From IMG/VR virus record IMGVR_UViG_3300027712_000098, positions 1 to 30,221 of that record: a stretch of 30,221 nt of DNA; one strand, 5' to 3'. Each line of letters begins with the position of its first letter. Positions within the stretch are counted from its first letter, which is position 1. Source of the stretch: a virus. The notes under the pieces were generated by a model that was given only the letters and a program-made list of their open reading frames with translations, had not been told where the DNA came from and searched no databases. Positions 27,125 through 27,272 of this stretch are shown piece after piece. The translations under genes were made by a program, and so were the position numbers.

Positions 27125-27272
27125 TTATCGTAGTGTATAAATCAGTTACTCCATGTAAGGCATCGTGTCGGCGGTTCGACTCCGTTCCCTGTGAGCCATT
27201 CAATAATAAATTCACAGGTAGCTCAGGTGGTAGAGCAGATGAAAAAATACTGAATTAGCTTGTTCTCGATAA
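27125..27272 (+). ncRNA. Y RNA with permuted tRNA-like module and CCA (Y4)
   Basis: Outer helix TTATCG (27125-27130) with CGATAA (27267-27272); inner helix AATCAGT/ACTGAATT with one mismatch; TACTCC; 3' strand GCTTGTTCTC. Permuted module: T arm with TTCGACT loop, acceptor strand CCTGTGA, then G-CCA (27195-27198), 13-base linker, TCACAGG (27212-27218), D arm GCTC-AGGTGGTA-GAGC. Seven perfect acceptor pairs plus discriminator and CCA, as in a true tRNA. Confidence 0.8.

Follow-up and report, generated by a model that had tools for sequence, protein, structure and literature searches.

Do phage Y RNAs that encode a discriminator base, CCA and a linker inside the acceptor loop of their tRNA-like module become opened there, to present a tRNA-like 3′ end? 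The question is raised by Y4 and Y5, two Y RNAs in a 30-kb IMG/VR phage fragment (30,221 nt, hereafter the window) whose T4-type major capsid protein has its best phage relatives near 33% identity. The window includes a large tRNA island (21560-29869; 22 tRNAs by ARAGORN), and its Y RNA cluster sits just upstream of a phage Ro60/Rsr gene, the genomic link that marks Ro60-associated Y RNAs (Table 1). The product of that gene keeps the MIDAS residues D291/S293/S295 and would be the expected partner of the window Y RNAs. Elsewhere, the window encodes a second vWA-domain protein (19571-20263), separate from and unlinked to the TROVE gene, and a ribonucleotide reductase large subunit (11976-14792, minus strand) with an apparent intein: an extended insertion, with VVLHNC at its end, interrupts the protein ahead of the remaining catalytic region.

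Using a covariance model (R1) built from 22 tetraloop-type Y RNAs at other loci, with window sequences excluded, we detected six Y RNAs in the window: Y1, Y2a, Y2b, Y3, Y4 and Y5. Covariation is extensive, with both sides changed in 27 of 33 pairs, all 7 acceptor pairs among them. Under R1, Y4 and Y5 have the conserved Y stem pairing both RNA ends that defines a Y RNA, together with the permuted tRNA-like module of T, acceptor and D arms that defines YrlA. Judged by fold and genomic position, we assign both to the Ro60-associated YrlA-type Y RNAs, as a CCA-bearing variant. At its gathering score, the Rfam YrlA model RF02553 misses them (24.9 and 21.1 bits against a cut-off of 69 bits); because canonical Ro60-adjacent relatives also reach just 30-50 bits, this cut-off reflects a narrow model, and Y4 and Y5 are not filed as RF02553 entries. 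Neither is called as a normal-order tRNA by ARAGORN or the Rfam tRNA model. The tmRNA and tmRNA_permuted models gave zero matches at Y4 and Y5, and the combination of tag reading frame and model match that identifies a two-piece tmRNA was not found there. One fixed-spacing pattern scan returned nothing.

Table 1 Y RNAs, Ro60/Rsr gene and acceptor-loop elements in the window
Feature	Positions	Strand	Evidence or detail
Y1, YrlA-type Y RNA, permuted module	21651..21807	+	R1 E=1.7e-12
Promoter-like TTGACT-16-TACAAT, upstream of Y2a-Y4 cluster	26773..26800	+	consensus match only
Y2a, stem-only Y RNA lacking the tRNA-like module	26814..26887	+	R1 E=2.6e-7
Y2b, stem-only Y RNA lacking the tRNA-like module	26888..26968	+	R1 E=1.9e-11
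Y3, YrlA-type Y RNA	26977..27113	+	R1 E=2.1e-20
Y4, YrlA-type Y RNA, G-CCA and 13-nt linker in acceptor loop	27122..27274	+	R1 E=2.2e-19
Y4 acceptor 3′ strand CCTGTGA	27188..27194	+	
Y4 discriminator G73 and CCA	27195..27198	+	G 27195, CCA 27196-27198
Y4 linker TTCAATAATAAAT, 13 nt, ends A(-2)U(-1)	27199..27211	+	
Y4 acceptor 5′ strand TCACAGG, 7/7 paired	27212..27218	+	predicted RNase P cut before 27212
Y5, YrlA-type Y RNA, A-CCA and 13-nt linker in acceptor loop	27815..27964	+	R1 E=1.7e-24
Y5 discriminator A73 and CCA	27888..27891	+	A 27888, CCA 27889-27891
Y5 linker ATATATTTTTCAT, 13 nt, ends A(-2)U(-1)	27892..27904	+	
Y5 acceptor 5′ strand CCAGCGG, 6/7 paired, one A-C mismatch	27905..27911	+	predicted RNase P cut before 27905
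Promoter-like TTGACA-17-TATGAT, upstream of Ro60 gene	27970..27998	+	consensus match only
Phage Ro60/Rsr gene, TROVE and vWA with DxSxS	28030..29340	+	Pfam PF05731 E=1.8e-20; phrog_850 E=1.3e-52

Base-level anatomy bears out the original prediction that G-CCA in Y4 and A-CCA in Y5 stand right after the acceptor strand and are followed by 13-base linkers. It also agrees that Y3 closes its acceptor (27044-27050/27055-27061) with a GGAA tetraloop (27051-27054) and that Y1, with acceptor strands at 21727-21733 and 21742-21748 around the 8-nt loop CAATAAGT, has no CCA; the Y1 D arm is tRNA-Leu-like. The span first proposed for the two modules, 27171-27218, fits the Y4 T arm to acceptor, but the Y5 counterpart lies outside it, at 27864-27911. 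In Y4, the T arm (27170-27186) is followed by a single unpaired C (27187) and the acceptor 3′ strand, and after the acceptor 5′ strand come TA and the D arm (27221-27236). Y5 has its T arm at 27864-27880, its acceptor 3′ strand CCGCCGG at 27881-27887 and, again after TA, its D arm at 27914-27929.

The placement of CCA was compared with expectation in two sets of Y RNA modules. A descriptor scan of Ro60 loci gave 121 non-redundant permuted modules, Y4 and Y5 included; 64 of them have loops of 5 nt or more, and N-CCA starts the loop in 12 of these, against 1.15 expected. Among Y RNAs defined by covariance model, unselected for CCA and with the window excluded, N-CCA occupies the tRNA position in 14 of the 114 acceptor loops that are 5 nt or longer (2.07 expected, p=2.4e-8, a value that is optimistic because some entries are close relatives, namely CcrColossus/CcrPW and two Bradyrhizobium), with CCA at the other five offsets numbering 2, 2, 0, 3 and 0. 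One unbiased subset is weak on its own (3/47 N-CCA, p=0.054), and the other modules of CCA-selected contigs show no N-CCA enrichment (1/16). Loci L200-L299 had been fetched for having CCA; counts that draw on them either do not depend on this choice or are marked as CCA-selected, and conservation inside them was set aside as biased. When the conservation test was redone with patterns not requiring CCA, the homologues found (L217/L238, L261 and L272) all carried ACCA, with the remaining linker about 50-70% identical. Bradyrhizobium chromosomes have N-CCA-U in 22 of 28 modules, N being variable. We take the CCA in acceptor loops to be non-random and in tRNA register. An accidental landing of CCA behind the acceptor in both Y4 and Y5 is highly improbable: N-CCA is expected once per about 64 modules, and CCA does turn over among close phages, yet both long linkers of this one genome carry it (2/2) and N-CCA is enriched at the population level. 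The offset control and the base-composition expectation led us to reject chance placement.

The other end of the loop resembles a tRNA leader. In the set unselected for CCA, A(-2)U(-1) ends the loop in 8 of 14 N-CCA modules versus 9 of 100 others (p=8e-5), and in a pooled, partly CCA-selected set in 22/45 versus 8/81; a U before the acceptor 5′ strand is likewise far commoner in N-CCA modules. In kinetic work on E. coli RNase P, AU is reported to be an optimal leader sequence, and at least two pairs between leader and RCCA to be inhibitory (PMC9433436). Y4 and Y5 both have the AU leader, and just one leader-RCCA pair is possible in each. The acceptor loop of Y4 and Y5 can be read as a tRNA 3′-end/leader junction, running from N-CCA through an AT-rich linker to A(-2)U(-1) and the first acceptor base.

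A G-1:C73 pair is the rule for tRNA-His, and some Y RNA modules have the same register. Five of six C73 modules have G(-1), preceded by AU, versus 3 of 50 modules with other discriminators, and a dedicated pattern scan for the C73/G(-1) type returned seven contigs. Y RNAs with C73 modules in which AU precedes G(-1), a tRNA-His-like end geometry, occur at L058, L212, L207, L243 and L232.

The reading that we favor, though with slightly less than even weight, is that RNase P-type processing takes place in the acceptor loop of Y4 and Y5 and opens each module into a CCA-ended, Ro60-bound tRNA mimic. Host RNase P would cut before the acceptor 5′ strand (27212 and 27905), 3′ exonucleases would trim the exposed linker back to CCA, and Ro60 would then hold an RNA nicked into two pieces, one of which has a free, tRNA-like CCA end, by analogy with two-piece tmRNA. 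Such an end might serve as a decoy or competitor for tRNA-end enzymes (RNase P, EF-Tu or synthetases, CCA-attacking toxins); alternatively, it could help to load the Ro60-nuclease machine or be charged. Cleavage, trimming and downstream role are all steps that we infer. RNase P and tRNase Z recognize the acceptor/T half and do not need a complete tRNA. Opening at this same acceptor loop has been proposed for permuted pre-tRNAs and tmRNAs (PMC3978253, PMC3985003). Once opened, Y4 and Y5 are predicted to stay together as two paired pieces (-34.0 versus -20.0 kcal/mol for Y4, -38.0 versus -26.3 kcal/mol for Y5).

The original prediction that RNase P and 3′ processing could open both RNAs finds partial support in the non-random CCA, its tRNA register, the RNase P context and the predicted two-piece pairing, but other features count against it. 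The extra C of Y4 and the A-C mismatch of Y5 weaken the two-piece reading in the T/acceptor stack, as does the turnover of CCA among relatives: in L003, the closest relative (Ro60 82% identical), no Y RNA has a CCA module, and Brevundimonas phages differ among themselves, CCA having been gained or lost. Cutting would be difficult in short loops, in which a single nucleotide follows N-CCA, and this also speaks against opening. Most YrlA modules have tetraloops, so that a Y RNA can fill its basic role unopened. With a Y stem in place of the anticodon arm, decoding is not expected.

The most serious rival to opening, which we nevertheless judge unlikely, is that the module is a permutation relic: a tRNA gene was duplicated in tandem and its outer halves were lost, leaving CCA and linker as the functionless remains of an old 3′ end and spacer. 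Such a duplication is natural here because in 21 of the 22 window tRNA genes an encoded CCA leads into an AT-rich spacer (3-13 nt where the genes are packed), and the Y4 and Y5 linkers resemble the flanks of these genes. U(-1) is common to Y CCA modules and the tRNA genes of the same contigs (201/304), the L261/L217/L272 module has a 25-nt stretch in common with a tRNA-Phe gene, and duplication models have been published for permuted tRNA and tmRNA (PMC3978253). The homologue search also matched an ordinary tRNA-Phe (L453), which fits a tRNA origin of the L261/L217/L272 module. The best similarity to local tRNAs is only 0.63 for Y4 and 0.67 for Y5, however; this rules out a fresh copy of a neighboring tRNA and implies that the modules are not recent, and a functionless CCA would have had to persist throughout. 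CCA is also retained where the remaining linker has diverged and where the genome's own tRNA genes lack it. None of the tRNA genes encodes CCA in the CCA-Y phages L272 (0/23), L261 (0/18) and L315 (0/25), so inheritance from a phage's own tRNA genes is insufficient, and the idea that CCA merely mirrors CCA-encoding tRNA genes holds for the window but not generally.

Two further readings were weighed. The loop may never be cut, the intact form instead showing CCA to RNase P as a decoy that stays uncleaved, or protecting a long loop against RNase Z; we find this quite unlikely. CCA is an anti-determinant for RNase Z in many bacteria, and Bradyrhizobium retains 5-nt N-CCA-U loops that are too short for normal RNase P processing, both of which would suit a closed loop, but such a loop would require neither long AT-rich linkers nor a G(-1):C73 register. 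The RecA-dependent anticodon nuclease did not break Salmonella YrlA into fragments (PMC7790460), in keeping with an uncut RNA, whereas an optimal A(-2)U(-1) favors cutting (PMC9433436). Alternatively, Y4 and Y5 would be permuted genes for true tRNAs, the Y stem being excised and the ends ligated, as the original prediction had also entertained. Their order is that of algal permuted tRNA genes (PMC3978253), and Y4 retains both a variable loop of 5 nt and a helix of 4 bp that resembles an anticodon stem (27238-27241 with 27161-27164). Yet the part to be removed is the conserved Ro60-type Y stem, and inspection of Y4 and Y5 reveals no anticodon loop or splicing motif. To our knowledge, bacteria lack a tRNA-splicing endonuclease and their established biology offers no enzyme for a Y-stem splice. 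On this anatomy, as judged by inspection, we rejected ligation into true tRNAs and regard it as very improbable.

Further Y RNA and tRNA-like elements were seen in the window and at other loci. Bacillus phage G encodes a CCA-Y RNA with A-CCA and 21 nt (L414 9546-9706), along with a TROVE protein (gp540), a tmRNA and a CCA-adding enzyme (gp522). The CCA linker has its own hairpin in CcrColossus (L034 4148-4317), L411 and L204, the hairpin sequence differing in L204, and the CcrColossus CCA-Y RNA carries a tRNA-Gln annotation. At Ro60 loci, about 22 of 127 permuted Y modules draw a spurious call of an ordinary tRNA from ARAGORN, which means that Y RNAs contaminate the public tRNA annotation of these phages and bacteria. 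At L003 4688-4810, a Y RNA apparently lacks an acceptor stem, its T arm leading almost directly into the D arm. Conserved tandem short tRNA-like elements ending GGTCCACA / TGTCCACA lie at window 26590-26760 and L003 4040-4210; they have T arms, no normal anticodon arm and weak tmRNA-like and mascRNA-like Rfam matches, and one stretch could alternatively represent an acceptor arm in permuted order (ACGGTCC-acaat-GGGCCGA, with all 7 pairs formed in L003). ARAGORN calls a phage-encoded tmRNA (tag ending SLAAA) at L003 3699-4092, shortly upstream of the L003 Y RNAs; the corresponding window area holds an HNH endonuclease ORF (26111-26569, minus strand). A sub-threshold tRNA-like match at window 26020-26096 (27.1 bits), with a long variable-region insert, is uncalled by ARAGORN.

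Y4 and Y5 can be set beside several known systems. YrlA (RF02553) is a bacterial Y RNA known from bacteria and phages (Chen et al. 2014 and Wang et al. 2018, as relayed in PMC8394870); Y4 and Y5 share its Ro60-type Y stem, permuted T/acceptor/D module and adjoining Ro60 gene, and differ from typical YrlA, with its short acceptor loop, in having N-CCA, a 13-nt linker and an RNase P-like context. The literature searched, whose scope left out Chen 2014 and Sim 2020, makes no mention of CCA in YrlA. Phage-borne Ro60 proteins like the one here are known from jumbo-phage TROVE/Ro60 modules, and CCA-bearing Y RNAs are absent from the consulted portion of the survey of these modules (PMC7824862). In circularly permuted two-piece tmRNA (RF04321), the precursor acceptor arm is likewise joined by an intervening loop, whose removal by RNase P and tRNase Z has been proposed to leave a CCA-ended two-piece RNA (PMC3985003, PMC11915505); unlike it, Y4 and Y5 have a Ro60-type Y stem and no tag reading frame, and any processing of them is a prediction from sequence. 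In red algae and Thermofilum pendens, permuted tRNA genes also place the 3′ half before the 5′ half, and the T. pendens copies encode CCA, one with a 1-nt intervening sequence resembling the N-CCA-U loops (PMC3978253). Those genes yield true tRNAs by splicing and ligation, whereas in Y4 and Y5 the Y stem replaces the anticodon arm.

A recurrent CCA subclass with a tRNA-type leader, in some cases with tRNA-His geometry, provides a concrete, testable hypothesis for the tRNA-like part of bacterial Y RNAs, namely RNase P opening and CCA exposure. Cultured systems with such modules include Bacillus phage G, Caulobacter phages CcrColossus and CcrPW, Rhizobium phage RHph_TM30 and Bradyrhizobium. It is a long shot that phages and some bacteria would carry Ro60-bound two-piece mimics with processed CCA ends, some of them aminoacylated (the C73/G-1 type by histidyl-tRNA synthetase) and possibly diverting synthetases, EF-Tu or tRNA-end toxins. 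If opening does occur, processing into a two-piece tRNA-like RNA would reach beyond tmRNA to Ro60 particles and phages.
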